64,000 bases of DNA from Microbacterium paludicola (GTDB lineage: Bacteria; Actinomycetota; Actinomycetes; Actinomycetales; Microbacteriaceae): contig NZ_JADGLL010000009.1 in NCBI RefSeq assembly GCF_015235415.1, positions 1 to 64,000 of the forward strand, given 5' to 3'. Positions 45,677 to 62,704 of this stretch are shown here, in pieces (within the stretch, counting starts at the first letter, position 1; the number at the start of each line of letters is the position of its first letter). Below the pieces are notes generated by a model. That model was not told where the DNA came from. It did no database searches and saw only the letters and a program-made list of their open reading frames with translations. A program made the translations under genes and the position numbers.

Positions 45677-45739
45677 CAGCTTCTCCCCCCTTGCGCGCGT
45701 CGGCGCGCGAATGCTGTCGTCATTCTCCCCGCACGTCCC

Positions 45740-46528
45740 TCACTTGATGGCTCCGGCGGCCATGCCGCGCTCGAACTGCTTCTGCAGTGCCACGTAGGCG
45801 ACGACTGTCGGGATAACGGTGATCACCGAGGCGGCGAGGATCTTCGGGATGTCGTCGTTGTACTGGCGACGGAAGAACTCCGGCAGCAGCGTCACGACAC
45901 CCATATCCTCGTTCACCAGGAACACCTTCGGCAGCAGATACGCGTTCCACGCGTTGATCAGCACAAGCACGATCAGCGCGACGGCCATCGGGCGGGCGAG
46001 CGGCACGAGCACATTCCAGAAGATGCGCCACGTGCCGGCACCGTCGATGCGGGCCGCCTCGAACAGCGTGTCGGGGATGCCGTCGACGAAGCCGCGCGTG
46101 ATCAGCACGGTGAACGGGATCTGCAGGGCCGCGATCGGCAGGATCACCGACCAGAACGTGCCGAGCATCCCGAGCGTGACGGCGGTGGAGTACAGCGGCG
46201 CGATCAGCACGACCTCGGGCAGCGTGAGGCACACCATCATGAGCCAGAAGAACAGCTCCTTGTTCCAGATGCGCAGCTTCGAGAAGCCGTAGGCAGCGGC
46301 CATCGTCGCGAAGTAGATGATGATGATCGATCCGCCGGCGACGATCGCGGTGTTCAGGAAGAAGCGCGCGAAGCCGGGCACCTGCAGCACCGCGGAGTAG
46401 TTGCCCCAGCCCGCGCCCTCGAAGGACTTCGTGAACATGGCGTAGAGCGGAATCAGGAACGGGATCACGGCGATCGTGATGATCACCTGCAGCACGATCC
46501 GGGCCGCGAGAGAACGGGTCTCGAACAT
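45740..46528 (-). CDS. Sugar ABC importer permease, MalG type
   Basis: 262 residues from the ATG at 46528, 2 bp after the upstream permease stop. Six membrane helices; the EAA loop is DTLFEAARIDGAGTWRIFWNV. Short for a MalG-type permease because the N-terminal segment is brief. Part of the binding protein–permease–permease set 49013–45740, again without an ATPase. The ROK gene follows 63 bp later. Confidence 0.9.
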   Translation of the reverse strand: MFETRSLAARIVLQVIITIAVIPFLIPLYAMFTKSFEGAGWGNYSAVLQVPGFARFFLNTAIVAGGSIIIIYFATMAAAYGFSKLRIWNKELFFWLMMVCLTLPEVVLIAPLYSTAVTLGMLGTFWSVILPIAALQIPFTVLITRGFVDGIPDTLFEAARIDGAGTWRIFWNVLVPLARPMAVALIVLVLINAWNAYLLPKVFLVNEDMGVVTLLPEFFRRQYNDDIPKILAASVITVIPTVVAYVALQKQFERGMAAGAIK

Positions 46529-46530
46529 GA

Positions 46531-47574
46531 TCAGTCTCCTTGTCCGCCGCGACGGCGCGCGGCGTGGGGCTGCACGATCGCCCGGGTCGACTCGACGGCG
46601 AGCGGCTCGGTCGCGATCTGGGTGGTGCGGCGTGCGTCGCGCTCGCGTCCGCGCACCTGCATGAAGATGCTCGTCGCAACCGCGATCACGAGCAGGATGA
46701 CCGACAGCGCGGCGGCGTATCCGACCTCGCGGGTCGACGACGCGGTCTGCGAGTAGATCATCGTGCCGAGGAACTCGGAGGAGTTCGCAGGTCCGCCCTG
46801 CGTGATCAGCCAGACGCCGTCGAACAGCTTCAGGGCGGTGATGAAGTTCAGGATCGCGAGCGAGACGGTGATGGGGCGCAGGTTCGGCAGCACCACTGAG
46901 AACAGCGCGCGGAGGTTGCCTGCGCCGTCGATGCGGGCGGCCTCCAGCATCTCGGGGTCGAGCTGCGCCATCCCCGCGAAATAGAGGATGAAGCCGAATC
47001 CCACCGAGCCCCAGCAGCCGAGGAGCACGATCACGAGCAGCGACGTCGACGACTGCCCGAGCCACGACTGCGCCACGAACCCGAGCCCGATCGCGTTCAG
47101 GATCTCGTTGATCGTGCCATCCGTCTGCCACACCTGGATGTGCGCGGGGGCGAGGGTGGCCGGTGCCACGACGACAGGGACGACGACGATCACCTTGTAG
47201 ACGTTCGCGAGCCACACCTTGGAGTGCATCGCGGCGGCGAACAGCACGCCGCCCACGACCTGGACGACGTACACCACGACGAAGAAGATCACCGTGTTGC
47301 GGATCGCGATCCAGAACACCGGATCGGTGAACGCGCGCACGTAGTTGTCGAATCCGGCGGGCACCATGAGCGAGCGTCCGCCACCCCAGTCGAAGAACGA
47401 CAGGTACCCGGCGTAAACGATGCTGTAGTAGATCAGTCCGACCGAGACGATCAGACCGGGCAGGATCCACGCCATCCCGCCGGGGACGAGGGAGCCGGCG
47501 CGGTGCCGTCCCCCTCGCCTCGCGGGCGTGGTCGGACCCGGCACAGTGGCGGTGTGCTCTGCGAGAGCGGTCAT
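46531..47574 (-). CDS. Sugar ABC importer permease, MalF/UgpA type
   Basis: 347 residues from the ATG at 47574, selected because AAGGAAGG lies upstream of it; an ATG 21 bp earlier would bury that site in coding sequence. Six to seven helices, EAA loop PEMLEAARIDGAGNLRALFSVV. A ~35-residue basic tail follows the last helix. It sits 53 bp downstream of the binding-protein gene. Confidence 0.9.
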   Translation of the reverse strand: MTALAEHTATVPGPTTPARRGGRHRAGSLVPGGMAWILPGLIVSVGLIYYSIVYAGYLSFFDWGGGRSLMVPAGFDNYVRAFTDPVFWIAIRNTVIFFVVVYVVQVVGGVLFAAAMHSKVWLANVYKVIVVVPVVVAPATLAPAHIQVWQTDGTINEILNAIGLGFVAQSWLGQSSTSLLVIVLLGCWGSVGFGFILYFAGMAQLDPEMLEAARIDGAGNLRALFSVVLPNLRPITVSLAILNFITALKLFDGVWLITQGGPANSSEFLGTMIYSQTASSTREVGYAAALSVILLVIAVATSIFMQVRGRERDARRTTQIATEPLAVESTRAIVQPHAARRRGGQGD

Positions 47575-47627
47575 GTGCGGGTGCCTTCCTTGCATTCAGT
47601 GGATGTCGACGGCTGGTGCGGCGTCGG

Positions 47628-49013
47628 TCACTTGCCGATGTCCGTCGGCTCCGAACCGGCCTGCATCTCGGCCGCGATGTCCTCGATGCTCTTGTCGATC
47701 GAGGGATCGAGCACCTGCTGCATCGCGAGCACGATCGCATCCAGCGTCTTCTCGTGCGTCTGCCACTGGCGCGACTGGGTCGTGGCGGCGCTGTCGGCGA
47801 TCAGCTTCTCGATCGCGGGACGCTGCACCGCATCGTCCACGAGGGCGATCTCATCCCACGCGGGTGTGACGCCCTGGAGGGCGGGGAGCAGGTCGAGAGC
47901 GTTCGCGACGTGCTGCTGACCGGCCTCCGACATCGTCAGCCACGACAGGAATGTCTTGGCCGCACCGATGTTCTCGGAGTCCGCGTTGATCGCCAGGCCG
48001 TAGTCGGCCTCGCCGAAGTACGCCGAGCCGTTGCCTTTGCCTGCGACATCCGGGAACTCGGCAGGAAGCTGCACGAAGCACGTGGCGTTGCTCACACCCG
48101 CGCCCTCCATGGCGGTCTTGCACGACTCGGCTTCCGCGTACTGCGTGTACCAGAAGCCCATCTGCACCATGGCGGCCTCGCCCTTCATGAACGCCTCGTT
48201 CGCGAGGGGGTACTGGGGGCCGTCGAGTGCGTTGGCGGCGATGATTCCGTCATCGCGCATCTTCTGGAGGATCTCGAGCACCTCGATGCCCTGGGGGTCG
48301 TCCCACTGCGCTTCACCCGTGGCGGCCTTGATGAACCATTCCGGGTCGACCGAGTTCGCGATCGAGTGGAACATCTCGGTGGGGAACGTGTCCTCGCCGC
48401 CGGCGCCCATCGTGTAGCAGGTCTTGCCGATCGCGCTGATCTTCTCGCAGGCGTCGACCCACGAGTCGTAGTCGGTCGGCGCTTGGGTGCCGGCCTCGTC
48501 GAGGATGTCCTGGTTCACCCAGAGGAATCCCGCCGCCATGCCGCCGAGCGGCATCGACACGAGGCGACCATCCGACGCCCGCAGCTGCTCGGCGTAGCCG
48601 CCCGCGAACTTCGACTCCCAGTCGCTGCCGAGCACGTCGGCGGCGAGCGGCTCAAGGTCGAGTGCGTACCCGCCGTAGGTATCGGGAGAGCCGCCTGCAG
48701 GCGACAGGTTGAAGATGTCGGGGCCCGTGCCCGAGTCGAGCGCGGGCACGATGGCGTTACGGAAGTCGACGTTCTCGAAGTTCTTGTAGGTGACTTTGAT
48801 GTCCGGGTATTCCTCGTTGAACGCCGCGATGTAACGCTCGGCGACCGGCGTATCGGGGGTCCAGCCCCACCAGACGACCTCGCCCGACTCAGCGGGCTCG
48901 ACTTCTTCTCCTCCGCCGGCTGCGCCGCCCGCAGCACAGCCACTGAGCGCGAGCGCGACGACGGCCCCAGCCGCTGCCAGGCCGCGCGCACGGGACATCT
49001 TGATACGGGACAT
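47628..49013 (-). CDS. Sugar ABC importer binding lipoprotein
   Basis: 461 residues from the ATG at 49013 with GGAGGA upstream. Lipoprotein signal with lipobox ending LALSGC (Cys26), then a family 1 extracellular binding protein (EVVWWGWTPDTPVAERYIAAF, PAGGSPDTYGGYALDLEPL, FLWVNQDILDEAG). It should deliver a sugar or oligosaccharide to the two permeases downstream. A TGTAG-N5-CTACA palindrome lies 71 bp upstream at 49084–49098, the same site type found in front of the nearby catabolic operons, which ties the importer to that regulon. Confidence 0.9.
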   Translation of the reverse strand: MSRIKMSRARGLAAAGAVVALALSGCAAGGAAGGGEEVEPAESGEVVWWGWTPDTPVAERYIAAFNEEYPDIKVTYKNFENVDFRNAIVPALDSGTGPDIFNLSPAGGSPDTYGGYALDLEPLAADVLGSDWESKFAGGYAEQLRASDGRLVSMPLGGMAAGFLWVNQDILDEAGTQAPTDYDSWVDACEKISAIGKTCYTMGAGGEDTFPTEMFHSIANSVDPEWFIKAATGEAQWDDPQGIEVLEILQKMRDDGIIAANALDGPQYPLANEAFMKGEAAMVQMGFWYTQYAEAESCKTAMEGAGVSNATCFVQLPAEFPDVAGKGNGSAYFGEADYGLAINADSENIGAAKTFLSWLTMSEAGQQHVANALDLLPALQGVTPAWDEIALVDDAVQRPAIEKLIADSAATTQSRQWQTHEKTLDAIVLAMQQVLDPSIDKSIEDIAAEMQAGSEPTDIGK

Positions 49014-49083: not shown

Positions 49084-49098
49084 TGTAGTGACGCTACA
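49084..49098 (-). promoter_or_regulatory. RpiR/HexR-like operator before the importer
   Basis: TGTAGTGACGCTACA: palindromic TGTAG…CTACA with one deviation from TGTARTNNNAYTACA. 71 bp upstream of the binding-protein start codon. Confidence 0.6.
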
Positions 49099-49338: not shown

Positions 49339-49353
49339 TGTAGCAGAACTACA
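49339..49353 (+). promoter_or_regulatory. RpiR/HexR-like operator before the + strand catabolic operon
   Basis: TGTAGCAGAACTACA, perfect TGTAG/CTACA arms. It covers the -35 position of a promoter whose -10 would be TATTGT (49363–49368), so binding would block RNA polymerase. The flank ATCGAGG is shared with the site at 58487. Confidence 0.7.
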
Positions 49354-49427: not shown

Positions 49428-50171
49428 GTGTCAGAAGTCATCTCCGGCCGGTTCACCGGTCGCCGCGTCGCCGTGGTGGGGGGCGCCGGCGGTATCGGCG
49501 CCGCAATCGCGCGTCGCCTCGCCGACGAGGGAGCCGAGGTATACGCACTCGACCTGCGTGGGCTGGAGAACGTACCCGCGCACATCCAGACGGTCCCGAT
49601 AGACGTCGCCAACGAGCAGTCCGTCGCCGATGTCGTATCCCGCCTGTACGCCCATGACGACCGGCCGATCGACCTCGTCAACAGCGCGGGCATCGTCGAG
49701 GACGACGTGGCCGCGGAGGATATGCCGATGGAGACCTACGACCGCGTCATGGGCGTGAACCTGCGTGGCGTCTTCCTCACGTCCCGGGAGTTCGGCCGGC
49801 AGCTGCTCGCTCGCCAGGGCGGTTGTATCGTCAACATCGCCTCGATGTCCGGGAACGCTCTGGTGAACTTCCCCCAGCGACAGAGCGTCTACAACACCTC
49901 CAAGGCAGGGGTCAGTGCGCTGACACGATCTCTCGCCGTCGAATGGGGCGGACGAGGCGTGCGAGTCAACGCCGTCTCCCCCGGGTACGTGGACACGCCG
50001 TTGAATGCGTTGAAGAAGCACATGCACCAGGGCTGGATCGAAGGCACGATCGTCGGGCGCTTCGCACTGGTCGAGGAGATCGCCGGCACCGTCGCGTTCC
50101 TGCTGAGCGACGACGCCGCCTACTTCTGCGGCGCCGAGCTCCTAGTCGATGGCGGGTCGTCCCTGCGGTGA
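49428..50171 (+). CDS. SDR-family oxidoreductase, sugar/polyol type
   Basis: 247 residues from a GTG with a GAGGAG site. NAD(P)-binding GGAGGIG (18–24), NSAG (85–88), catalytic Ser139 and the Y155-x3-K159 pair; SPGYVDTPL follows. The sequence is of the classical SDR kind that oxidises sugars, polyols or sugar acids. First gene of the catabolic cluster; its stop overlaps the kinase start by 4 bp. It probably carries out an early oxidation or reduction of the imported sugar. Confidence 0.88.
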   Translation: MSEVISGRFTGRRVAVVGGAGGIGAAIARRLADEGAEVYALDLRGLENVPAHIQTVPIDVANEQSVADVVSRLYAHDDRPIDLVNSAGIVEDDVAAEDMPMETYDRVMGVNLRGVFLTSREFGRQLLARQGGCIVNIASMSGNALVNFPQRQSVYNTSKAGVSALTRSLAVEWGGRGVRVNAVSPGYVDTPLNALKKHMHQGWIEGTIVGRFALVEEIAGTVAFLLSDDAAYFCGAELLVDGGSSLR

Positions 50172-51703
50172 CCGCGTACATCCTTTCCCACGACCTGGGC
50201 ACGACCGGCGACAAAGCGACTCTTGTCGACGATGCCGGTCGCGTGGTCGATACAACCACCGCCACGTACAGTGTCACGTTCGGCCCGGGTGGGCTGGCGG
50301 AGCAGGACCCCGATGACTGGTGGCGAGCAGTCTGCGTCGCGTCGCGGCAGCTGATCGATGCTCATCCAGAGGCACGAGGTGCCCTGGCCGCTGTGGCCTT
50401 CTCCGGACAGATGATGGGTGCGGTCATGCTGGATGGGGATCTGGCCCCCGTGAGGCCTGCGATCATCTGGGCGGATACCCGCTCGAGTGCGCAGGCCGAC
50501 CGCCTGGTGGAGCGCGTGGGGATGGCCCGTGCGTACCGCATCACCGGACACCGGCTCAATCCCACTTACACCCTTCCAAAGCTCATGCTGGTGCGTGACC
50601 GGGAGCCCGACGTGTTCGCCCGTGTGCGGCACGTTGTGCTCGCGAAAGACTACGTCGTGCTTCGGCTCACGGGCGAACTCGCAACGGATCCGTCGGATGC
50701 CAGTGGCACCAATGCGTTCGATCAGACATCCGGCGATTGGTCCGACGAGCTGCTGGCCGCGGCGGAGGTGCCTCGCGGCGTCCTGCCGCCCATCGTCCCT
50801 TCCACGACGATCATCGGGCATGTCACGGGGGAGGCCGCATCACTGACCGGGATCGCGGCCGGCACGCCCGTCGTCATCGGCGGTGGCGACGGGCCGATGG
50901 CCGCTCTCGGCGCCGGCGTGCACGCCCCATCCTCTGGCACATACGGCTATCTCGGCACGTCTTCATGGGTGTCGTACGCCTCGACCGCCCCGCTCCACGA
51001 TCCCCAGATGCGCTCGATGACGTTCAACCATGTCGTGCCCGGCCTGTTCGTCCCGACCGCCACCATGCAGTCGGGCGGAGGCGCGATCGAATGGATCGCG
51101 GATGTGCTCGAGCCGCAATCGGGCGGGGAGCGCTACGCCGCACTGCTCGGCCCGGCGAGAAGCGCGGCGGCCGCGGACGACGGTCTCTTCTTCCTGCCGC
51201 ATCTGCTCGGGGAGCGCTCGCCCTACTGGAACCCTCACGCTCGCGCTGCCTTCGTAGGCCTCGGGCGCCATCACGATCGCCCGCACCTCGTGCGCGCGGT
51301 TCTCGAGGGAGTGGCATTCACTCTCATGAGCGGGTTACACGCATTCCGCGAAGGCGGCGCCGCCATCACAGGCGTGGACCTGATCGGCGGCGCCGCGAAC
51401 TCCGAGGTCGTGATGTCAGTGCTGTGCGACGTCTGGGGCGTGCCCGTGCGCCGGCGAGCGCTCGTCGACGAATCGACGGCGCTCGGCGCAGCCGTGGTCG
51501 GCGGAGTCGGCGTCGGGGTGTTCTCCGATTTCGGAATCTCTCGGCGGATGTCGGAACTGGACGAGCCGCTTCAACCAGACCACACCGCGACTGCGAAGTA
51601 CCGCGAAGCCCATGAGGCGTTCACCGACGCCTACCGACGACTGGAGCCTTGGTTCGAGGATCGCGCAGCCGCAGCCGCAGTCGCGAGGGAAGGAGACAGA
51701 TGA
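50168..51703 (+). CDS. FGGY-family carbohydrate kinase, xylulokinase-like
   Basis: 511 residues from a GTG (GTGA overlap). The ATPase-fold start is HDLGTTGDKATLVD; then AFSGQMMGAVMLD, PAIIWADTRS, a second phosphate segment (GTSSWVSY) and ERSPYWNPHARAAF near the C-terminal domain, plus GGAANSEVVMSVLCDVWGVPV. FGGY kinases phosphorylate ketoses, polyols or related sugars with ATP. Xylulokinase-like members have variable substrates. It is coupled to the SDR before it and the cupin isomerase after it, which points to ketose phosphate chemistry. Confidence 0.9.
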   Translation: MTAYILSHDLGTTGDKATLVDDAGRVVDTTTATYSVTFGPGGLAEQDPDDWWRAVCVASRQLIDAHPEARGALAAVAFSGQMMGAVMLDGDLAPVRPAIIWADTRSSAQADRLVERVGMARAYRITGHRLNPTYTLPKLMLVRDREPDVFARVRHVVLAKDYVVLRLTGELATDPSDASGTNAFDQTSGDWSDELLAAAEVPRGVLPPIVPSTTIIGHVTGEAASLTGIAAGTPVVIGGGDGPMAALGAGVHAPSSGTYGYLGTSSWVSYASTAPLHDPQMRSMTFNHVVPGLFVPTATMQSGGGAIEWIADVLEPQSGGERYAALLGPARSAAAADDGLFFLPHLLGERSPYWNPHARAAFVGLGRHHDRPHLVRAVLEGVAFTLMSGLHAFREGGAAITGVDLIGGAANSEVVMSVLCDVWGVPVRRRALVDESTALGAAVVGGVGVGVFSDFGISRRMSELDEPLQPDHTATAKYREAHEAFTDAYRRLEPWFEDRAAAAAVAREGDR

Positions 51704-52317
51704 GGACCGAGGACATCTACGGAGCCCCAGTGCGCCTCGCCCCGGATGCGGAAGGGACGCTGGAAGGCTCCGACGGACGCTACGAGAAGCGGTTGTCAGA
51801 TCTCGCAGGCCTCTACCGCGACGATGCGGCATATGCGCGTGCGCTCGAAGCCGACCAAGGCGAGCCCGTGTACTGGGTCGAGTCGAGCACCCCGTCTCAG
51901 GTCGCCGGCGCCCTCACCATCGGAGTCAGTTGCCTGCGCCCGGGGACGATAGGCAACGAGTTCGCCATGACGCGAGGCCACATTCATAGGACCGTCGGCG
52001 CCGCCGAGTTGTACTACGGCCTGTCCGGTCGCGGTGTGATGCTGATGGACGCACTCGACGGCGATTCACGCGCCGTCGAGATCACGCCAGGCGTCGCTGT
52101 GCACGTGCCGGGCGGTTGGATCCACCGCAGCGTGAACGTCGGCGACGAGTTGTTCACGACCCTCTTCTGCTACGCCACGGATGCTGGGCAAGACTATGAC
52201 GTCATCGCCCACGCGGGCGGAATGCGGAGCCTCATCGTGCGCGGAGCCGGCGGCGCATGGGCACAGGTGCCGAACCCTGACCATCGCGGATACCGTTCCG
52301 GGGAGACTGACGAATGA
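51700..52317 (+). CDS. Cupin-type (archaeal-like) phosphoglucose isomerase
   Basis: 205 residues, ATGA overlap with the kinase; GGAGAC upstream. It shows the metal site of cupin PGI: His94, His96 (RGHIHRTVG), Glu103 (AAELYYGLSG) and His142 (GGWIHRSVN). These enzymes isomerise glucose 6-phosphate and fructose 6-phosphate and are best known from archaea and a few bacteria. In this cluster the enzyme may act on an analogous sugar phosphate produced by the FGGY kinase. The domain identity is firm; the actual substrate is inferred. Confidence 0.85.
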   Translation: MRTEDIYGAPVRLAPDAEGTLEGSDGRYEKRLSDLAGLYRDDAAYARALEADQGEPVYWVESSTPSQVAGALTIGVSCLRPGTIGNEFAMTRGHIHRTVGAAELYYGLSGRGVMLMDALDGDSRAVEITPGVAVHVPGGWIHRSVNVGDELFTTLFCYATDAGQDYDVIAHAGGMRSLIVRGAGGAWAQVPNPDHRGYRSGETDE

Positions 52318-53285
52318 CGGACGTGCTGCCGGTCCTCACTGCCTCCAGCCTCACCGCGGCCGAGGAACCGACGTTGTACTTCATCGGCGTGACCACCGGA
52401 CGCTCGTCCATCCAGCGCGTCTTCCCGCAGTGGGCTCGCGCTCTTGGCCGCCCCGACGTGCGACTGCGTGGCATCGATCTTCCGTTGCATGCCCCGGCCG
52501 AGGACTACCGAGCCGTGGTCGAGTTCATCGCGACGGATCCCCTCAGTCTCGGCGGGCTGGTGACGACTCACAAGATCGACCTCTTCACCGCATGCCGTGA
52601 CCTCTTCGATGAGATCGACCCGCTCGCGGCACTCATGGGCGAGACGAGTTGCTTGTCGAAGTCGAACGGCCGCCTGGTCTGCCATGCGAAGGATCCGATC
52701 TCGAGCGGGCTCGCGATGGACGCGTTCATCCCTGAACGGCATTGGGCGGACACCGGTGGGCAGGTGCTCAGTCTTGGCGCGGGAGGCTCGACCATCGCCA
52801 TCGCCTGGCATCTCTCCCACTCCGATCGCGCCGACCGCCCCGATCGGATCGTTGTCACGAACCGCTCCCCTCAGCGTCTCGCGCATCTGGAGCACGTGTA
52901 CGCGCAGTTCGGCACCGACGTGCCTCTGGAGACCGTGCTCGCGCCCTCGCCGGTGGACAACGACCGCGTGCTTACGCGCATGCCGTCCGGCTCGCTCGTG
53001 GTGAACGCGACGGGACTCGGTAAGGACGCGCCGGGCTCACCGCTCACGGATGACGCACGCTTCCCCGCCGACGGCTTCGCGTGGGAGTTGAACTATCGCG
53101 GCGAGCTTGTGTTCCTCGATCAGGCGCGCGCCCAAGCGGGCCCCCGCCGCTTACGCATCGAGGATGGATGGGTGTACTTCCTCCACGGCTGGACGCGGGT
53201 GATCGCCGAGGTCCTTCACGAGGATGTCCCCACGGCGGGTCCGGTGTTCGACGATCTCGCCATGCTCGCCGCTTCGACCCGCTGA
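52314..53285 (+). CDS. Shikimate-dehydrogenase-family (AroE-like) dehydrogenase in a sugar cluster
   Basis: 323 residues, ATGA overlap. The AroE two-domain fold is visible: substrate Ser31-Ser32 (TGRSSIQRVFP), catalytic Lys87 (LVTTHKIDLF), Asp127 (AKDPISSG) and NADP-binding GAGGST (155–160). The usual GxPIxHSxSP substrate motif is absent, and no other shikimate or quinate gene is near, so it should act on a different cyclic or hydroxy-acid substrate. In this cluster it might oxidise or reduce an inosose-like or keto sugar acid. Its presence between a sugar-phosphate isomerase and an RpiR regulator is unusual. Confidence 0.8.
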   Translation: MTDVLPVLTASSLTAAEEPTLYFIGVTTGRSSIQRVFPQWARALGRPDVRLRGIDLPLHAPAEDYRAVVEFIATDPLSLGGLVTTHKIDLFTACRDLFDEIDPLAALMGETSCLSKSNGRLVCHAKDPISSGLAMDAFIPERHWADTGGQVLSLGAGGSTIAIAWHLSHSDRADRPDRIVVTNRSPQRLAHLEHVYAQFGTDVPLETVLAPSPVDNDRVLTRMPSGSLVVNATGLGKDAPGSPLTDDARFPADGFAWELNYRGELVFLDQARAQAGPRRLRIEDGWVYFLHGWTRVIAEVLHEDVPTAGPVFDDLAMLAASTR

Positions 53286-54209
53286 ATGGAAGCCATGAAC
53301 GACGCCCTCTCCGCCGGCTCCGCCGCCCCCGCATCGGGTCTGTTCGAGACCCTCACCGCGACGATGCCGGACCTCCGCGCGTCCGAACGCAAGGTCGCCG
53401 ACGTGGTCCTGGCGGACCCGGCCGAGGCTGTGGAGTTCAACATGGCGGGCCTCGCGGACGCCGCGGGTGTGAGCGAGCCGACCGTGATGCGGTTCTGCGC
53501 CGCATTGGGATTCGACGGCTTCCGGTCGTTCAAGCTCGCGCTTGCGCAGTCCGTGGCGGTCGGGCTCCCGCTGACGTACTCCGCGATCAGCCGCAGCGAT
53601 TCGCTCGACGCCCTGGCAGAGAAGGTCTTCAACCACACGATCTCGAGCCTCGATCGCGCGCGACGCCACCTCGACACAAAGCGGATCGGCCTCGCGGTCG
53701 ATCTTCTTGTGAAGGCCGACGATCTGATCTTCGTGGGATTCGGCGCGAGCGGGATCGTCGCGCAGGACGCCCAGCAGAAGTTCCCTCTGTTCGGCGTGCC
53801 GTGCCAGGCACCGTCGGACTTCCATCAGCAGTTCATCGCCGCGTCGATGAGCCGCCCGACAACGGTCACCGTGGCGATCTCTCACACCGCGCGCACTCGA
53901 GAGGTGGTGCGGGTCGCCGAGGCTGCCCGCGCCGCCGGAGGCCGTGTTGTCGCGATCACGGGGGACGAGGGGCCACTCTCCTCGCTCGCCCACGTCGAGA
54001 TCCGCAGCAGCACATTCGAGGACACCGACGTATACACCCCGAGCGTGAGCCGCCTGGCAGACCTCGTCATCGTTGACATCCTTGCAACAGCGGTTGCGAC
54101 CCGGCGCTCCGTTGCGGATCTCGAGCGCGTCCAGGAGATGAAGCAGAGTCTGGCGCGCATGCGCGGCAGCGAGGAGAGCGCCGCCTCGCGACCTGGAGCC
54201 GCACCGTGA
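53286..54209 (+). CDS. RpiR/MurR-family transcriptional regulator
   Basis: 307 residues. An HTH_6 domain at ~25–95 (PDLRASERKVADVVLADP, GVSEPTVMRFCAALGFDGF) precedes a SIS sugar-phosphate-binding domain (~130–260: IFVGFGASGIVAQDAQQKF, TVAISHTARTREVV). Such proteins respond to phosphorylated sugars. Its start follows immediately after the AroE-like stop codon. Four HexR-like palindromes around the cluster (49084, 49339, 58487, 58560) make it the likely regulator of the cluster and the importer; DNA binding is inferred. Confidence 0.9.
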   Translation: MEAMNDALSAGSAAPASGLFETLTATMPDLRASERKVADVVLADPAEAVEFNMAGLADAAGVSEPTVMRFCAALGFDGFRSFKLALAQSVAVGLPLTYSAISRSDSLDALAEKVFNHTISSLDRARRHLDTKRIGLAVDLLVKADDLIFVGFGASGIVAQDAQQKFPLFGVPCQAPSDFHQQFIAASMSRPTTVTVAISHTARTREVVRVAEAARAAGGRVVAITGDEGPLSSLAHVEIRSSTFEDTDVYTPSVSRLADLVIVDILATAVATRRSVADLERVQEMKQSLARMRGSEESAASRPGAAP

Positions 54210-55141
54210 TCGGACGCGGCCGAATTCTCATCACACCGCGCTCCCTCACACGACAAGGTCTCATTGCGGAGGGCCCGCTTGATCTGCTCCGGCAGGCGGG
54301 CTACGAGTTGGTCGGATGCACCCCTGGAGAGATCCCAGCCGAAGCGGAGCTGCGCCGAGTTCTTCCCGGTTGCGTCGGCTGGCTGGCTGGAGTTGAACCC
54401 ATCACCGCCCGCGTGCTGGATGCGGCAGACGCGCTGCGGGTGATCAGCCGCAACGGCGCCGGGGTCGATGGAATCGATCACGACGCGGCCGCGGAGCGCG
54501 GAGTACGGGTCGTCCGCGCGGCCGGGGCCAACGCACAAGGCGTCGCCGAACTCGCCATCGGACTCGCGATCGACGGGCTTCGTGGCATCACCTGGTCGGC
54601 ACGCGCACTCGCGGATGGCCAGTGGCGTCGCCGCGAAGGCCGTGAGCTCGGCGACGTGACGATCGGCGTCGTCGGTCTCGGTGCGATCGGTCGCCGCGTC
54701 GCGACGATGGCCGCGGCACTGGGCGCGGACGTCGTCGCGCACGATCCGTTCGTCGCCGAGGCGCCTTTCGACCTTGTTCCCCTCGACGACCTCATCGCAC
54801 GAGCCGATGTCGTCACCCTGCACATTCCACCAAGCCCGCAAGGGCGTCCGGTGATCGACGGAGCGCGCCTCGCGCGGATGCGACGCGGCGCAGTGCTCAT
54901 CAACACCTCGCGTTCCGCGCTCGTTGACGATGACGCGGTCCTCGCGGCCCTCGAGAGTGATCAGCTCGCCGCCTACGCGGTCGACGCCTACGACACGGAG
55001 CCCCCGGCACCCAGCCGCCTGCTTGCCCACCCCGCGACCATCGCGACCTCCCACCTTGGCGCGTACACGGATGCGAGCGTGCGCCGCGCGGCCGCCGATG
55101 CGGTACGCAACCTGATCACGGCCCTGGAGAAAGAAGCATGA
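54206..55141 (+). CDS. D-2-hydroxyacid dehydrogenase, PGDH-like
   Basis: 311 residues from a GTG, 4-bp overlap. NAD-binding GVVGLGAIGRR (154–164), catalytic Arg236 (INTSRSALVD), Glu265 (AYDTEPP) and His283 (TSHLGAY) form the complete triad of the family. It interconverts a 2-keto acid and a D-2-hydroxy acid, such as 2-keto sugar acids, glyoxylate or 3-phosphoglycerate. Its position after the regulator and before a lactonase-like gene suggests oxidation or reduction of an aldonic acid derivative. Confidence 0.88.
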   Translation: MIGRGRILITPRSLTRQGLIAEGPLDLLRQAGYELVGCTPGEIPAEAELRRVLPGCVGWLAGVEPITARVLDAADALRVISRNGAGVDGIDHDAAAERGVRVVRAAGANAQGVAELAIGLAIDGLRGITWSARALADGQWRRREGRELGDVTIGVVGLGAIGRRVATMAAALGADVVAHDPFVAEAPFDLVPLDDLIARADVVTLHIPPSPQGRPVIDGARLARMRRGAVLINTSRSALVDDDAVLAALESDQLAAYAVDAYDTEPPAPSRLLAHPATIATSHLGAYTDASVRRAAADAVRNLITALEKEA

Positions 55142-56055
55142 CGCCGCCCTTCGAGCCCGAGGTGATGACGGGGCGCGTACGCACAGTCGCCGGTGATGTC
55201 GCGGCCGGCGACCTCGGTCGCGTGGACTACCACGAGCATCTCTTCCAAGTGACGCCCCTGCTTCCCGGCGACGAGCTCGATGACGAGTCGGCCGCAGCGG
55301 CCGAGGCAGCCGAGCTGCGTGAGTCCGGCTTCGAAGCGATGATCGACGCGACCCCGCTCGGTCTCGGCCGGGACGTTCCCGCGCTGGCACGCGTCGCCGC
55401 CGCCACAGGGCTTCGGATCGTGTCGGCTACGGGGGCCCACCGGGAATCGCATTACCGCGCTGACCATCCTCTCGTCGCGCTGAACGAGGCGGACCTCGCG
55501 CGGCGCTTCACAAAGGACCTCAGGAGCCGGTCGGGAATCGTCAAGGCGGGGATCGATTACTGGAAGATCACGCGGTTCTCTCGACGGGTGCTCGCCGCCG
55601 CGGCGTCGGCGCACGCCGAGGTCTCCGCACCCGTCATGGTGCACCTGGAGCACGGCAGCGCCGCCCACGAGGTGCTCGACGTCCTGGAAGCCGACGGTGT
55701 ATCGGCGGACGCCGTTGTCCTGGCCCACATAGACCGGAACCCCGACGCCGTGCTGCATGCTGAGCTCGCCGCGCGCGGCGCGTTCCTCGGCTACGACGGA
55801 TTCGCAAGGCATCGCGAACACCCGGATTCGGTGGTGCTCGACTGCCTGGAGCGGGCGGCGCACCTCGGTGCCGAGAACCGGCTGCTGGTCGGCGGAGACG
55901 TCGCGCGGCGCTCGCGATATCGCGCCTATGGCGGCCTCCCGGGCCTGCGCTATCTCGGGCTGCGCGTCGTGCCTCGTCTCATCGCCATGGTCGGCGAAGA
56001 TCTCTCCGACCGGGTGCTGCGCCGCAACCCCGCCCGCCTGCTCGCACGCTTCTGA
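55138..56055 (+). CDS. Phosphotriesterase-family hydrolase, probable lactonase or phosphate esterase
   Basis: 305 residues, ATGA overlap. The binuclear metal site of the family is complete: His32-x-His34 (YHEHLF), the carbamylated Lys136 (GIVKAGIDYW), His169 (VHLEHG), His197 (LAHIDRN) and Asp254 (GGDVARRS). Members hydrolyse organophosphates in a few cases but more often lactones, including phosphorylated sugar lactones. In this cluster a lactone or sugar-phosphate ester is the likely substrate. Last gene of the + strand operon; 15 bp later the opposite operon ends, with no strong hairpin between them. Confidence 0.88.
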   Translation: MTPPFEPEVMTGRVRTVAGDVAAGDLGRVDYHEHLFQVTPLLPGDELDDESAAAAEAAELRESGFEAMIDATPLGLGRDVPALARVAAATGLRIVSATGAHRESHYRADHPLVALNEADLARRFTKDLRSRSGIVKAGIDYWKITRFSRRVLAAAASAHAEVSAPVMVHLEHGSAAHEVLDVLEADGVSADAVVLAHIDRNPDAVLHAELAARGAFLGYDGFARHREHPDSVVLDCLERAAHLGAENRLLVGGDVARRSRYRAYGGLPGLRYLGLRVVPRLIAMVGEDLSDRVLRRNPARLLARF

Positions 56056-56070
56056 ACCGGGGGCGACCCC

Positions 56071-57117
56071 TCAGGGGGCGATCACAGCCTTGACGCACGC
56101 GCTATCGGCCACCGCGGCGAGCGCATCGGCATACTGCTCGATTCCGAAACGGTGCGTGACGTACCCGCTCGGATTCACGACGCCGGAGCGCAGGTAGGCG
56201 AGCGCACGATCGAACGAGAACTGCTGCGCGAAGGATCCCTTGATCGTCAACTCGCGACGGAAGACCTCGTAGGAAGCGACCGGCCACCGGGTTGCCTCCG
56301 GTGTCATGCCATAGACGAACACCGTGCCGCCTGTGCGGGTGAGCCCGATCGTGCTCTCCAGGACAGAGGGTGCGCCAGTGGCGTCGACAACGACGTCGTA
56401 TCCGCGTGGTGCGTTCGCCCGCAGGTGGGCCAGTGCCGTCTCCGGATCCTGACGATCGACTCGCACGGTCCGCGTCGCACCGCTCCGACGCGCAAGCTCG
56501 AGTTTCTCGACCGTCGGCGCCGCGACGGTGAGTCGGGCTGCTCCGTTTCGAGACAGCAATTGTGTCAATAGCAGACCGGTCGGTCCGGCGCCGAACAGCA
56601 GCACGTCCGATCCAGGCCGCAGTCCGAGCACATCGAGGCCGTGGACGACGCACGCCGTGGGTTCCGCGAAGACGGCGACGTCGACATCGAGGTCGTCCGC
56701 GGGGTAGCAACGTCCGATCCTGATGACGACATATTCGGCAAAACCGCCCTGCGCGTTGACGCCGTGCGCGACGTTGGCGAGGCAGAATGCCGGCCGTTGG
56801 CGTAAGCACTCTGCGCATTCACCGCACTGAGCGGTGTTGTCGAGCACTACTCGCATTCCCTCGGCGAGTCCCGCCATCGCAACGAGGTCTTCGGAGTCCG
56901 CGCCGAACCTGACCACCTCACCGACGATCTCGTGCCCCGGCACCAGCGGGTAGCTCGGGCCGAACTCGCCGACGTGCAGGTGAAGATCTGTACCGCACAC
57001 ACCGGCGAGCAGCACTCGCAGCAGCACTTCCCCAGGCCCAGGCTCGGGCACAGGGAGCTCGCGGATCTCGAAATGCTCGGGGCGGTCGTAGACCACGGCC
57101 TTCATCGTGGCGGGCAT
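56071..57117 (-). CDS. Zinc-dependent polyol/alcohol dehydrogenase
   Basis: 348 residues with GGAGGA before the ATG. Catalytic zinc Cys41, His61-Glu62 (CGTDLHLHVG, PGHEIVGE); structural zinc Cys98, 101, 104, 112. NAD site GAGPTGLLL. The overall pattern resembles D-arabinitol or sorbitol dehydrogenases, oxidising polyols to ketoses. It follows the isomerase-like gene on the - strand after 21 bp and shares the operator region at 58487–58574. Confidence 0.88.
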   Translation of the reverse strand: MPATMKAVVYDRPEHFEIRELPVPEPGPGEVLLRVLLAGVCGTDLHLHVGEFGPSYPLVPGHEIVGEVVRFGADSEDLVAMAGLAEGMRVVLDNTAQCGECAECLRQRPAFCLANVAHGVNAQGGFAEYVVIRIGRCYPADDLDVDVAVFAEPTACVVHGLDVLGLRPGSDVLLFGAGPTGLLLTQLLSRNGAARLTVAAPTVEKLELARRSGATRTVRVDRQDPETALAHLRANAPRGYDVVVDATGAPSVLESTIGLTRTGGTVFVYGMTPEATRWPVASYEVFRRELTIKGSFAQQFSFDRALAYLRSGVVNPSGYVTHRFGIEQYADALAAVADSACVKAVIAP

Positions 57118-57138
57118 GATCGGGTCCTCCGTGGGATG

Positions 57139-58467
57139 TCAGATGCGGAAGGTCTCGAGATCCAGAACGCGCGAGACCACGTCGAGTCGTCGCGTGAGAT
57201 CCCCGACGGCGATGATCGCGTGATGAGATGGCAGGTTCTCGACGAAGCGATAGCCGTCCTCGACGCGCAGCACGGCACCGTTGAGGCAATCCGAGTTCTC
57301 GAATTGCGCATACTCGGAAAGCACGGCGGGAGTGACCGAGAGGCGGTCCATCGTGCTCGTGATCTTCACGAGGGTCACGTCACCCTCGGGAAAGCGGGCG
57401 TCGAGCGCGTGTGCGCGCGGATCGACGATCTCGAGCACCCGGGGCCGCACCGCCCACTGGCTCGCCCACCGCTGCGGCACGATGCCGAAGAACCCGCAAT
57501 GGGCAGCAAGGATGTGGTTCTCTGGCTGGGCGGACACGGGCGGGAAATGCGGAATCTTCTCGTGCTTAAGCGCGGCTTGACCCATGAGGAACGGGTACAG
57601 GTTGGTCATCATGACGGGCGCGTCGAGAGAGGCGTTGACGAGGTACTTCGTGATCATGGAGGTCAAGTCGGCTTCGCACCCCCAGATCAGGCCTCGCTCC
57701 TCGAAGAGCAGGTTCCAGGCGAGACAGGGCGTGGTCGCCGACGTCTCCGACTCGTTCAGGCAGTTGATCCCGGCTGCGATAACGCCGGGGGTCTCGTCGA
57801 GTTCGTCGGAGAGCGCGAGCTTCATGCGGAGGGCCTCTTCTCGGGCACGCAGACCGAGCTCGCTGAGCTGCACCCCGTTGGACACGCGTGCGATCTCCTC
57901 CGTGACCCGTGACGCGGGTACGGCGGCGGCGCGTGCGGCCAGCTCTCGAAAGCTGCGTTTCTCGACCACCGTGCCGAACACATCGGCGAGCGCTCCCGCG
58001 CAGTCGTCTTCGTACCAGTAGAAGCGCTTGAAGATGTCGGGCTGCTTGCCTGCGCCGAGGTCGTCGAGGTAGGCAAGCATGCGCGCACCGCGCAACGTCG
58101 CCTTGGCGCCGAGCGCACGAAGAATGTCCTCGAACTCCGTGCGCGCGGTCGGAGCAATTGTGGGCACGCCTCGCCGCGCGAGGAAATCGCGGATCTCCCA
58201 GTCCCACATGGAGACGGTGCCGAACTCGCTGGTCACGACGAGGATCGGAACCCGAATGCGCTGGAAGTAGTCGAGCTGGCGGTACGCGGCGCCGCTCATG
58301 TCGGGCACGATCACGGCGTCGGCCTGCACCCCGTCGGCTTCCGGTAGCCGACAAGGCTCGAGCCAGGCCACCATGTGCCCCGCGATGGCGCGCAACGCCT
58401 CGAGTTGAATGTGGAACGACTGCTGCGGTATGTCCTCCAGATACACCGGAAGCACTGTCGGGATCAC
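57139..58467 (-). CDS. L-fucose/L-arabinose isomerase-like protein
   Basis: 442 residues from a GTG with GGAGAG upstream. The central segment WGCEADLTSMITKYL provides Glu265 and Asp267 in the place of the metal-binding acidic residues of L-fucose isomerase, and AAHCGFFG gives His323. The fold is that of the FucI/AraA superfamily, which interconverts aldoses and ketoses at a Mn site. It is shorter than FucI (about 590 residues) and closer to FucI-like proteins of unknown substrate. First gene of the - strand part of the cluster; two operators precede it. Confidence 0.75.
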   Translation of the reverse strand: MIPTVLPVYLEDIPQQSFHIQLEALRAIAGHMVAWLEPCRLPEADGVQADAVIVPDMSGAAYRQLDYFQRIRVPILVVTSEFGTVSMWDWEIRDFLARRGVPTIAPTARTEFEDILRALGAKATLRGARMLAYLDDLGAGKQPDIFKRFYWYEDDCAGALADVFGTVVEKRSFRELAARAAAVPASRVTEEIARVSNGVQLSELGLRAREEALRMKLALSDELDETPGVIAAGINCLNESETSATTPCLAWNLLFEERGLIWGCEADLTSMITKYLVNASLDAPVMMTNLYPFLMGQAALKHEKIPHFPPVSAQPENHILAAHCGFFGIVPQRWASQWAVRPRVLEIVDPRAHALDARFPEGDVTLVKITSTMDRLSVTPAVLSEYAQFENSDCLNGAVLRVEDGYRFVENLPSHHAIIAVGDLTRRLDVVSRVLDLETFRI

Positions 58468-58486: not shown

Positions 58487-58501
58487 TGTAGTAGAACTAC
58501 T
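58487..58501 (-). promoter_or_regulatory. RpiR/HexR-like operator 1 before the isomerase-like gene
   Basis: TGTAGTAGAACTACT, one deviation (last base) from TGTARTNNNAYTACA, 13 of 15 bases equal to the site at 49339 and with the same TCGAGG flank. It lies 20 bp upstream of the GTG. Confidence 0.7.
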
Positions 58502-58559: not shown

Positions 58560-58574
58560 TGTAAACGTACTACA
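58560..58574 (-). promoter_or_regulatory. RpiR/HexR-like operator 2 before the isomerase-like gene
   Basis: TGTAAACGTACTACA, one deviation from TGTARTNNNAYTACA. It lies 73 bp from operator 1 (about seven helical turns), so two dimers could sit on the same face and loop the DNA. Confidence 0.6.
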
Positions 58575-58635: not shown

Positions 58636-59519
58636 TTACTTCACGGCACCCGCGGTCAGTCCGCCGACGATGTACTTCTGCAGGAACAGGAACAGCGCGA
58701 CCACCGGCAGCGCGGCCATCACCGCGCCGGCCGAGAAGGCGCTCCAGTCTGCGTAGCGCGGGTTCGAGACCAGCTTCGTCAGACCCACGGCGAGCGTCTG
58801 GTTCTCGGTGTCGATCAGCACGACCGACGCCACCACGAACTCGTTCACGCTGCCGATGAAGGACAGCAATGCGACAACCGCCAGGATCGGCGCGACGAGG
58901 CGCAGGATGATCGTGAAGAACACGCGCACGTGGCTCGCGCCGTCGATCTTCGCGGCCTCGTCGATCGACTGCGGCACGGTGTTGAAGAATCCGTACATCA
59001 GATAGGTGTTCACGCCGAGGGCGCCGCCGAGGTAGACGAGGATCAGGCCGATCCTGCTGTTCAGGCCGATGGCCGGGAACCAGTCGCCGATGGCGCTCAG
59101 CAGCAGGAAGATCGCCACCACCGCGAGCAACTGCGGGAACATCTGCACGACGACGATCGTGATGAGCCCGAAGCGACGGCCGGTGAACCGCATGCGCGAG
59201 AACGCGTATGCGGCGAGCGCGCCGAGGAAGACGGTGAGGATCGCGGTGATGCCCGCGATGATCAGGGTGTTCGCGAACCACGCGAGGAACGGCACCTTCG
59301 GGTCGCTGACGATGCGCACGTAGCTGTCGAAGCCGATCGCCGAGAACAGCGCGTTCGATCCGGTGAGGGTGCCGCGCGGGTTGAGCGAGCTCGAGATCAC
59401 GAACACGATCGGCAGCAGCGAGAACGCGGTGACGATGATGCCGACGACGTGGCGCCAGCCGAGGTCGGCGAACCAGCGTCCGAAGGAGCGGCGGCGGTCG
59501 GTGAGGGCGGTCGCGCTCA

Positions 59520-59520
<1 letters not shown>
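58636..59520 (-). CDS. Maltose-type ABC importer permease MalG-like
   Basis: 294 residues from the ATG at 59520, which overlaps the MalF-like stop by one base. Six helices; EAA loop QSIDEAAKIDGASHVRVFFTI. The C-terminal LQKYIVGGLTAGAVK matches MalG. Last gene of the binding protein–MalF–MalG operon. No ATPase follows; the next gene beyond is the isomerase-like gene, 168 bp away. Confidence 0.92.
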
Positions 59521-61154
<1,634 letters not shown>

Positions 61155-61187
61155 GGCTCCCTTGCCCGTGCGAAGTCGTCAGAGTCC

Positions 61188-61227
61188 GCTCGTCGAGCGA
61201 GGGCCGCGAGGCCCTCGCTCGACGAGC
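61188..61227 (-). terminator. Intercistronic hairpin between malE-like and malF-like genes
   Basis: Perfect 18-bp stem (61188–61205 with 61210–61227) with a GCGA tetraloop. It lies inside the operon, so it probably reduces read-through or protects the upstream mRNA, giving more binding protein than permease. Confidence 0.85.
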
Positions 61228-61253
61228 AGGGATGTGGAGGTGTCAGTCCCGGA

Positions 61254-62504
61254 TCAGCCGATGGCGGCCTGCACGTCGGACGTCAGCTTCTGCCACGTCG
61301 CGACGGGGTCGGCGCCGTTGATGATCTCGGCCTGTGCGATGCCCCAGTACTGCCACACCGAGCCCATCGCCGGGATCGCGGGCATCGCCACCGCCTGCTC
61401 GCCCACCGTGGCGAAGCCGCCGATGATCGGGTCCTCCGAGGCGGTCTCGGCCGCGGCGGAGAGGGCCGGCAGGATGTTGCCCGCCTCGAACAGCGCGAGC
61501 TGCGCGTCCTCGGAGCCGAGGTAGTTCACGAGGAAGTCGTTCGCGGCGACCTTGTTGTCCGACTCGGCCGAGACGAAGAAGCCCTTGACGCCCGCGAACG
61601 GCGAGGCGGGCTTGTCGGTCGGGCTCGGGACCGGGTCGATCGCGACGTCCACGCCGGCGTCGATCGCGGCGCCGACGTTCCACGGGCCGGTGAGCCAGTA
61701 GGCAGCCTTGCCGTCGATAAACGACTGCTTGGCGATGTCGCCGTCGATGTCGGTGTTGAACACGCCGGTGCCGTTCTTGCCCTGGCCGGCGAGCCACTGG
61801 GCGAACTGCTCGCCTCCGGCGCTGCCGAGCTGCAGGTCGGTCGGGTCGTAGCCCTTGTCGTTCGTGCCGAAGACGGGGGCGCCGAACGCGGTCTGGAACG
61901 GGTACAGGTGGTAGGGGTTGCCCTCGGCACCCTGCTCGACGACGAACGGCTGGTCGAGGCCGGCGGCCTTGCCCTTGGCGATCATGTCGTCGAAGCTCGT
62001 GGGCGCATCCGGCACGAGCGCCTTGTTGCGCAGCACGGCGATGTTCTCGACGGCGTACGGGAGCATGTAGACGGTGCCCTCGTAGGTGGAGGCGTCCAGC
62101 GCGACGGGCAGGTAGTCCGAGGCCGCGTCGCCGAGCTCGAGCGGCGCGACGACGCCGTTGGTGGCGAGCTCGCCCAGCCAGTCGTGGGCACCCATGGTGA
62201 TGTCGGGGCCCTCGCCCGTCGGCACCTGCTGGATGAAGTCGTCCTTGATGTCGGCGTTGTCCTTGCCGACGAGCTCGACCTCGACACCGGTCTGCTCGGT
62301 GTACGCGTCGGCCGCACCCTGCAGCGCATCCACGCGCTCGGCGTCGACCCAGACGGTCAGAGTCGATGTGGCCTCGCCCTCGCCCTCGGCGGGGGCGGAC
62401 GTCTCGCCGCCCTGCGGGGCCGGCGTGGACGAGCATCCGGCAAGGCCGAGAGTCGTCGCGATCGCGAAAGCCGCGACCAGGCGGCCCTTGCTGTTCACCT
62501 TCAT
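61254..62504 (-). CDS. Maltose/maltodextrin-binding lipoprotein MalE-like
   Basis: 416 residues from the ATG at 62504. Lipobox LGLAGC with Cys24, then a Gly/Glu-rich linker. The mature part has the MalE pattern: LTVWVDAERVDALQGAADAY, GPDITMGAHDWLGELATNGVV, YMLPYAVENIAVLRNKALV and AAYWLTGPWNVGAAIDAGVDV. This strongly suggests maltodextrin binding. A promoter and a LacI-type operator lie upstream. The divergent GH13 glucosidase would split the imported sugars. Confidence 0.92.
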   Translation of the reverse strand: MKVNSKGRLVAAFAIATTLGLAGCSSTPAPQGGETSAPAEGEGEATSTLTVWVDAERVDALQGAADAYTEQTGVEVELVGKDNADIKDDFIQQVPTGEGPDITMGAHDWLGELATNGVVAPLELGDAASDYLPVALDASTYEGTVYMLPYAVENIAVLRNKALVPDAPTSFDDMIAKGKAAGLDQPFVVEQGAEGNPYHLYPFQTAFGAPVFGTNDKGYDPTDLQLGSAGGEQFAQWLAGQGKNGTGVFNTDIDGDIAKQSFIDGKAAYWLTGPWNVGAAIDAGVDVAIDPVPSPTDKPASPFAGVKGFFVSAESDNKVAANDFLVNYLGSEDAQLALFEAGNILPALSAAAETASEDPIIGGFATVGEQAVAMPAIPAMGSVWQYWGIAQAEIINGADPVATWQKLTSDVQAAIG

Positions 62505-62550
62505 TGGCGTGTTGCCTCTCTGTCGTGGAATCGGCCACTCCGCCGATTTC

Positions 62551-62592
62551 TGCAAGCGGTTACAGGTATACCCGTTCATCCCGGATCCGCAA
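62551..62592 (-). promoter_or_regulatory. malE-like promoter with LacI-type operator
   Basis: On the - strand TTGCGG (62592–62587), a 16-bp spacer and TATACC (62570–62565) form a promoter. Just downstream, TGCAAGCGGTTACA (62551–62564) matches the LacI-family operator pattern TGNAANCGNTTNCA at every fixed position, placed to block initiation. Confidence 0.65.
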
Positions 62593-62658
62593 AACGGCCC
62601 TTCTGTGATGCCAGAGGTTCGATACCCAACCGTGATGCACACGGACGCCGCTCCTGCC

Positions 62659-62696: not shown

Positions 62697-62704
62697 CTCA
62701 TCTC

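Follow-up and report, generated by a model that had tools for sequence, protein, structure and literature searches.

Gene content of the cluster

We describe here a cluster of nine genes for carbohydrate catabolism in Microbacterium paludicola, situated at positions 49,428 to 58,467 of the stretch of DNA analysed (64,000 nucleotides, hereafter the window). An initial annotation, made from the sequence alone, had placed nine genes there, and a check of the open reading frames (ORFs) found all nine at the places and on the strands that it gave, seven on the + strand and two on the − strand. The close packing described for the + strand genes was also confirmed, with five 4-bp overlaps and one abutting pair (the AroE-like and RpiR genes). 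The genes are designated A to I:

49428-50171, + strand: gene A, short-chain dehydrogenase/reductase (SDR) oxidoreductase (PF13561); variable entry gene, putative polyol or sugar dehydrogenase
50168-51703, + strand: gene B, FGGY ketose kinase of the xylulokinase type (TIGR01312)
51700-52317, + strand: gene C, cupin-type phosphoglucose isomerase (PF06560); proposed to convert a ketose phosphate into an aldose phosphate
52314-53285, + strand: gene D, AroE-superfamily dehydrogenase (profile match to shikimate dehydrogenases); proposed lactone-forming aldose-6-phosphate 1-dehydrogenase
53286-54209, + strand: gene E, RpiR/HexR-type regulator with SIS domain (PF01418, PF01380)
54206-55141, + strand: gene F, D-2-hydroxyacid dehydrogenase (PF02826/PF00389); proposed aldonate-6-phosphate 2-dehydrogenase
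55138-56055, + strand: gene G, phosphotriesterase-fold hydrolase (PF02126); proposed phospho-lactonase
56071-57117, − strand: gene H, zinc-dependent polyol/sugar dehydrogenase (PF08240/PF00107); entry module
57139-58467, − strand: gene I, isomerase with a predicted L-arabinose/L-fucose isomerase fold; entry module

Seven of the family names were upheld by Pfam and NCBIfam; the other two, AroE-like and FucI-like, were weak at the sequence level and were then backed by a profile and by a predicted fold, respectively. Gene B passes the cut-off of the xylulokinase model (395.7 versus 380.25 bits). Gene C scores 129.4 bits against PF06560 (cut-off 20.7) and matches phosphoglucose isomerase structures of the PDB from 1.7e-34; the cupin residues H94, H96, E103 and H142 are kept in at least 95% of 109 sequences (duplicates included, as in all residue and palindrome counts below). 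The NCBIfam matches of gene A include the GolD/DthD model NF005309, at 168.2 bits (below the cut-off of 286), and gene E reaches 260 bits with the HexR model, below the cut-off of 296. These gene families, like the conserved core, the exchanges between non-homologous enzymes and the operator-like sites reported below, are results of computation.

A core of genes recurs around relatives of protein D

Relatives of protein D were collected by a scan of public sequences. At least 593 stretches matched by pattern, at least 552 of which encode a D relative, and 80 were retained. The main sample consists of 106 loci, one per 90% identity group of D and the window included, 92 of which are at least 15 kb long; the unreduced set of 129 loci holds duplicates. 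In unannotated loci, genes named without a cited family match were assigned by eye. D is present in 39 of the 299 genomes of the window's family, and on 15 plasmid records, mostly rhizobial (52-64% identity). The initial annotation had seen a combination of genes matching no pathway; within the one open-access library searched this stands, but the number of stretches encoding D relatives means that the combination is not a one-off.

The same annotation had suggested a comparison of genome neighbourhoods. When it was run, a core was found to recur in most of the 106 non-redundant loci, made of an FGGY kinase (93 loci, and 86 of the 92 long ones), a cupin isomerase (94/106), D, a hydrolase, a D-2-hydroxyacid dehydrogenase (the NAD-dependent type of gene F in 82/106) and often an RpiR regulator (73/106). 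This recurrence argues that the gene set is not due to chance. The natural unit differs from the nine genes: the SDR, the zinc dehydrogenase and the isomerase vary between related loci. Among entry-type genes near D, SDR matches were counted in 70 of the 106 loci, for what is a very common family, GldA-type dehydrogenases in 27 and RbsD-like pyranases in 12.

Entry genes, glycosidases and transporter types differ from locus to locus, as would be seen if unrelated sugar operons had come to lie accidentally around a common regulator region. We regard this explanation as very improbable: a run of cupin, aldolase, D and F genes is common to part of the actinobacterial and rhizobial loci, genes overlap by 4 bp, and a palindrome (see below) is shared between operons. 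Some of the loci lacking core genes are short or cut; L035, for instance, is completed by L173.

Other arrangements were seen around D. In three loci of one genus (L047, 9465-10424; L048, 4012-4968; L049, 9426-10370) it stands alone, with no kinase, cupin or lactonase gene nearby. In L050 (2605-9468), L051 (11044-17277) and L068, a second D paralogue adjoins a UlaG-like gene of the metallo-beta-lactamase fold (MBL; tested for L050), and the genes around them look by eye like those of a split transketolase, a HAD protein and SDRs, so that a sister pathway ending in transketolase is possible there. Many of the loci L053-L067 add to the core a CUT2 transporter and genes of the D-ribose pyranase, ribokinase-like and GntR kinds, near fucose-type genes.

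Two unrelated hydrolases exchange at the proposed lactone step

Protein G scores 121.8 bits against PF02126 (cut-off 22.4), and the phosphotriesterase (PTE) residues H32, H34, K136, H169, H197 and D254 are kept in at least 95% of 41 sequences. In rhizobial and related annotated loci, an MBL gene stands in the place of the PTE gene. The MBL copies tested are distant relatives of UlaG (43.9 bits with NF008688, cut-off 306; PDB 2wyl at 2.4e-7). PTE was found in 35 of the 106 loci, the UlaG-like MBL in 52, and both together in none; before removal of duplicates, the figures were 40, 66 and 0 among 129. Fisher's test gives p = 4e-16 for this exclusion, a value that ignores shared descent. On a quick tree of D the hydrolase type changes twice, both changes being forced by starred branches, with the reservation that the stars of such a tree are less reliable. 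Independent exchanges between PTE and MBL are few.

Hydrolases of phosphorylated lactones are named in both superfamilies, UlaG among the MBL proteins and NF045706 among the PTE ones. For this reason, the function likeliest to be shared by the two proteins would be lactone opening. The initial annotation had attributed lactone hydrolysis to the PTE-like protein, and the exchange with UlaG-like proteins lends support to it from comparative genomics.

The size of the lactone can be debated. The nearest structure to G is 3pnz (6.3e-36) and its best NCBIfam model is the phospho-furanose lactonase NF045706 (89.5 bits); a paper listed by title in a reference list is said to concern a lactonase for pentono-1,4-lactone-5-phosphates. 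With a kinase of the xylulokinase family, and RbsD-like pyranases in some loci, D and G might act on a pentose-5-phosphate, in a C5 phospho-furanose lactone pathway similar to that of the described PTE relatives. We find this doubtful: the NF045706 score is far below the cut-off of 630, the cupin relatives with known structures are glucose-6-phosphate isomerases, and an aldolase acting on a C5 intermediate would release glycolaldehyde phosphate, which makes a poor end product.

In Listeria (L082, 7709-9918), the PTE homologue comes directly after the IIC gene of an ascorbate-type phosphotransferase system (PTS), where UlaG might have been expected.

Two enzymes exchange at the proposed 2-hydroxyacid step

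The solved structures nearest to protein F are phosphoglycerate and glycerate dehydrogenases, glycerate dehydrogenase/glyoxylate reductase included. A FAD-linked dehydrogenase of the D-2-hydroxyacid type is present in 9 of the 92 long loci: 74 loci have F alone, 6 the FAD enzyme alone, 3 have both and 9 neither. On the quick tree of D, the FAD enzyme changes with F about five times. A FAD enzyme standing in the place of F points to a step in which a 2-hydroxy acid is oxidised, and this agrees with the hydroxyacid oxidation initially proposed.

Protein D belongs to the shikimate dehydrogenase superfamily

Protein D has no match in Pfam at E≤0.001, and remains below the cut-offs of the shikimate dehydrogenase models (31.5 bits with TIGR00507, versus 200.2). 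A profile of 13 D homologues reached the shikimate dehydrogenase 1nvt at 2.5e-9 in a PDB profile search. In the alignment with 1nvt, the Lys of THK is placed over PHK and the Asp of AKDP over NTDG; we take this Lys and Asp of D to be the catalytic pair of AroE. Residues K87, D127, N231, K237 and D238 are invariant (130/130 sequences). Judged by its sequence, D is a member of the shikimate dehydrogenase superfamily, outside the curated AroE models. Annotated records label its homologues 'shikimate dehydrogenase' within sugar operons.

In L142, L145 and L161 (contigs of 4.6-8.7 kb), D and MBL are the only recognised genes. Because D accompanies the lactonase, small loci included, the dehydrogenase of the lactone step would be D rather than an SDR. 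The SDR had also been a candidate for forming the lactone, and was rejected on the ground that SDRs come and go from locus to locus, whereas D keeps to the lactonase.

Many loci also carry a KDPG-type aldolase

The proposed route needs a KDPG-type aldolase, which the initial annotation had not considered. In many relatives an extra gene of about 220 residues lies between core genes, and the copy tested is a KDPG/KHG aldolase, over the cut-offs of PF01081 and TIGR01182 (KDPG, 2-keto-3-deoxy-6-phosphogluconate). KDPG-type aldolase genes are present in 64 of the 106 loci and genes of the DeoC type (deoxyribose-phosphate aldolase) in 15; in two loci, a DeoC-type gene replaces the KDPG-type gene between cupin and D. 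The window cluster holds neither type. In the source genome a single eda gene was found (184.6 bits, over the cut-off); it is located on a different contig, with neighbours read by eye as hexuronate catabolism. Residues E39 and K128 of the aldolase are kept in at least 95% of 80 sequences; the metal-ligand or catalytic roles of these residues, as of those conserved in C and G, are presumed from the families. The eight cluster aldolases compared are of two types, told apart by an arginine that follows the conserved Glu region in one and is missing in the other, a split that may reflect repeated recruitment of aldolases.

In the window's family, eda was found in 38 of the 39 genomes with D, against 127 of the 260 without (Fisher p 3.6e-10), the figure of 38/39 coming from two genome lists compared by eye. 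The single D genome devoid of eda, G209, is that of locus L048, with its lone D outside any cluster. Among the 80 scan loci, 38 have no local eda; 20 of these genomes were searched whole, and all 20 have eda, 18 of them over the cut-off.

Two DeoC-bearing actinobacterial loci have glycosidase-like neighbours. L031 (3177-5792, 11996-14476) adjoins a GH2-domain protein and a large protein with a chitobiase C-terminal domain, and L092 (5202-7757) an alpha-L-rhamnosidase, which suggests plant glycosides as a source.

A proposed phosphorylating oxidative pathway and its possible substrate

The explanation that we propose is a phosphorylating oxidative sugar pathway, in which we infer every reaction, the substrate and the order. 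A glycoside or sugar would be taken up and converted to a ketohexose by the ATP-binding cassette (ABC) transporter, I, H and A, perhaps with the GH1 enzyme (see below). The FGGY kinase would make the ketose-6-phosphate and the cupin isomerase convert it to the aldose-6-phosphate. D would then oxidise the anomeric carbon to give a phospho-lactone, G would open it to the aldonate-6-phosphate, and F would oxidise C2 to give a 2-keto acid. Finally, a KDPG-type aldolase, provided in the source genome by the hexuronate-type operon, would cleave this acid into a C3 keto acid and glyceraldehyde-3-phosphate, so that each core enzyme acts a single time. We put the chances of the explanation as a whole at even, and think it rather probable that the order of the core steps is right. 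Compared with the initial annotation, the succession of ketose, kinase, cupin, lactone, PTE and 2-hydroxyacid dehydrogenase is retained, and of the two candidates for the lactone-forming oxidation, SDR and AroE-like protein, the latter is preferred.

Aldolases of the KDPG and deoxyribose-phosphate types normally need a CH2 beside the carbonyl, at C3. Of the families without a label, 25 turn up within 8 kb of D in 4 or more of 130 loci, and reading them by eye revealed no dehydratase. Given these two points, the simplest closure of the pathway is a 3-deoxy-hexulose as substrate, for example 3-deoxyfructose, which is the reduction product of 3-deoxyglucosone. It would lead to KDPG, and hence to pyruvate and glyceraldehyde-3-phosphate. 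The DeoC-type aldolases fit this scheme, since they cleave the same end of the molecule. We put forward tentatively, as less likely than not, a widespread 3-deoxy-hexulose pathway of this kind, with D as sugar-phosphate dehydrogenase, either lactonase and the 2-hydroxyacid dehydrogenase yielding KDPG without dehydratase.

Several observations weigh against the proposed pathway. Common descent inflates the p-value of the PTE/MBL exclusion, and 19 of the 106 loci have no lactonase, PTE or MBL, while 17 have neither F nor the FAD enzyme (some of these loci being short or cut). An aldolase is missing from the window cluster; the association of eda with D is partly built in, since D loci often contribute a copy themselves, and the 20/20 result is weak, eda being widespread among proteobacteria. 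A talarate/fuconate-type dehydratase gene is found at the locus edge, more than 8 kb from D, in 8 family loci; with the fucose-mutarotase genes near some family loci, we tentatively read it as part of separate fucose operons. In Marinovum, an IlvD/Edd-type gene lies about 3.5 kb from D. Psicose-3-epimerase-type barrels near D in 14 of the 106 loci would be odd for a 3-deoxy sugar. Lastly, the CUT2 binding proteins of eight proteobacterial loci match PDB 4ry9 at 1.8e-148 (next 1e-53), which we take to be a D-talitol complex. With a plain hexitol as substrate the C3 hydroxyl would be kept, and the aldolase product would be hydroxypyruvate.

The last point leads to an alternative, in which an ordinary hexitol or hexulose such as D-talitol or altritol yields a 3-hydroxy 2-keto-6-phosphoaldonate, then hydroxypyruvate and glyceraldehyde-3-phosphate, with F possibly reducing the hydroxypyruvate. 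Besides the 4ry9 match of the binding-protein family, it is favoured by the GldA-type dehydrogenases and SDRs near D, by the GolD/DthD-family dehydrogenase of the S. meliloti locus (385 bits, over the cut-off of 286), and by the presence of glycerate dehydrogenase/glyoxylate reductase among the structures near F. We consider it unlikely, though worth keeping in mind: in addition to the CH2 normally needed by both types of aldolase, no recurring gene could be named by eye as handling hydroxypyruvate, the FAD enzyme at the place of F points to oxidation, and where the locus lacks an aldolase, the genome supplies an ordinary eda gene.

Isomerase I and the neighbouring genes

Gene I has no match in Pfam (E≤0.001) or NCBIfam, nor among PDB sequences (E≤1). 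An AlphaFold model built from 8 homologues has a mean predicted local distance difference test (pLDDT) score of 75.5, with weak stretches such as 325-355, as compared to 34.1 for the single-sequence model. Foldseek relates the former to 7cyy (3.3e-17), and it aligns with 7cxo (Z 22.9, 400 residues, root-mean-square deviation 4.6) and 1fui (Z 21.4), this comparison reaching the families listed by VIA-align. According to the model, gene I has the L-arabinose/L-fucose isomerase fold. The gene is rare: it occurs in 5 of 299 genomes of the family and 2 of 394 of the class, its own genome being counted in both. A profile search of 396 genomes of the phylum returned clear matches in 4 besides its own and faint matches in 3 more, and no relative was found in the plasmid collection at 1e-5. 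Matches in 11 of the 106 D loci are an overstatement, the second query being a 545-residue protein of L067 without family match. Gene H adjoins gene I in the window and in L033, L091, L093, L170, L171, L172 and L173.

To the left of gene A, the following genes were found:

47628-49013, − strand: CUT1 sugar-binding lipoprotein, divergent from gene A
45740-47574, − strand: two CUT1 ABC permeases (the one at 45740-46528 by sub-cut-off scores with sugar ABC permease models; the other read by eye)
44441-45676, − strand: ROK-family regulator (NagC, Mlc and ROK models, below cut-offs)
43547-44317, − strand: glyoxalase-like VOC protein (PF00903); possible upstream module
42591-43544, − strand: aldo/keto reductase (PF00248); possible upstream module
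42167-42529, − strand: tautomerase (PF14552); possible upstream module
40783-42165, − strand: GH1 beta-glucosidase (TIGR03356, over cut-off); possible upstream module

The best PDB match of the lipoprotein is a chitin-oligosaccharide binding protein (2.6e-15), and its homologues (74% and 78% identity) lie near gene I in L093 and L170. In L170 the left neighbours, 40783-49013, are again found beside I-H-A, as are some of them in L171 and L093 (names by eye). The unit probably reaches left over the sugar ABC transporter (45740-49013), and perhaps further to 40783. The recurrence of these neighbours beside I-H-A hints at uptake and cleavage of a beta-glucoside. Among the 106 loci, aldo/keto reductases were counted within 10 kb of D in 10, the tautomerase and the VOC protein in 1 each and GH1 in none, the GH1 gene of the window lying just past 10 kb.

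To the right of the cluster (58636-64000), there is a second, maltose-type ABC transporter with a MalE-like protein, and a GH13-like gene read by eye.

An operator-like palindrome

Four sites of a palindrome, TGTAG-N5-CTACA, flank the operons:

49084-49098: exact palindrome, between the transporter gene and gene A
49339-49353: exact palindrome, upstream of gene A
58487-58501: one-mismatch site, about 20 bp upstream of gene I
58560-58574: second one-mismatch site, upstream of gene I

The latter two sit in the gap between gene I and the right-hand transporter. Four sites with at most one mismatch compare with 0.15 expected in the window, and a count of 4 was reached in 0 of 100 shuffles. In the entire genome (3.29 Mb) the exact palindrome has 2 occurrences, both at the cluster. 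A caution comes from the backward control pattern, which has 6 places in the genome versus 2: what marks these sites is their rarity and their position, with no enrichment. With at most one mismatch there are 32 places genome-wide, versus 146 for the control pattern; as such sites are many, those of gene I are judged by their position. In the 129 loci of relatives, 25 of 27 exact copies are intergenic, for 9.7% of intergenic sequence by the gene caller used. The exact form is present in 21 of the 90 loci with an RpiR gene, and absent from 69. From sequence and position, the RpiR protein probably binds TGTAG-N5-CTACA and jointly controls the transporter, core and isomerase operons.

Comparison with known systems

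No described pathway matching this one was found in one open-access library, which was searched for lactonases, 3-deoxy sugars, kinase/cupin/aldolase combinations and AroE-like sugar enzymes, a search that is no proof of absence; the passages of PMC9007349 and PMC5788505 examined hold nothing on the present route. If D is a sugar-phosphate dehydrogenase, its homologues are mislabelled as 'shikimate dehydrogenase' and pathway databases lack a catabolic route that is common. The reactions assigned from the two exchanges, in which unrelated proteins stand in for the lactonase and for the hydroxyacid dehydrogenase, can be tested. Should the substrate be a 3-deoxy sugar, the route would bear on the fate of sugar-browning products in soil and on plants; 3-deoxy-hexuloses arise when 3-deoxyglucosone, formed in sugar browning, is detoxified.

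The Entner-Doudoroff pathway likewise goes from aldose-6-phosphate to a lactone, opens the lactone, and ends with a KDPG-type aldolase (TIGR01182) giving glyceraldehyde-3-phosphate, as proposed here. The enzymes differ: in the present case the first dehydrogenase is AroE-like, the hydrolase is of the PTE or MBL type, and a 2-hydroxyacid dehydrogenase takes part. No Zwf, Pgl or Edd was seen by eye in the core gene lists, these enzymes not having been searched singly; there is no Edd in the window cluster according to its ORF list, Pfam and NCBIfam, and no whole-genome edd search was made. In the Ula system for L-ascorbate-6-phosphate, a phosphorylated lactone is opened by an MBL of the UlaG type, the substitute of G in proteobacterial loci; the core described here differs in having no visible UlaD-type decarboxylase or ascorbate PTS, with ABC uptake and a kinase instead. 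The PTE phospho-furanose lactonases (NF045706; 3pnz) share with G the superfamily and the conserved metal-ligand pattern, but G stays under the NF045706 cut-off, and the Listeria PTE homologue is 31% identical and lies in another operon.

The polyol pathways of M. smegmatis and Agrobacterium resemble the present one by ABC uptake, an SDR or zinc polyol dehydrogenase and a ketose kinase. Their threitol, erythritol and altritol routes differ in reaching central sugar phosphates through a final isomerisation or epimerisation, and are not known to include lactone and 2-keto acid steps. The parts are thus ordinary and the pathway unusual: it seems to be a version of the phosphorylating lactone/2-keto-acid routes, seemingly undescribed, present in many soil and plant-associated bacteria.

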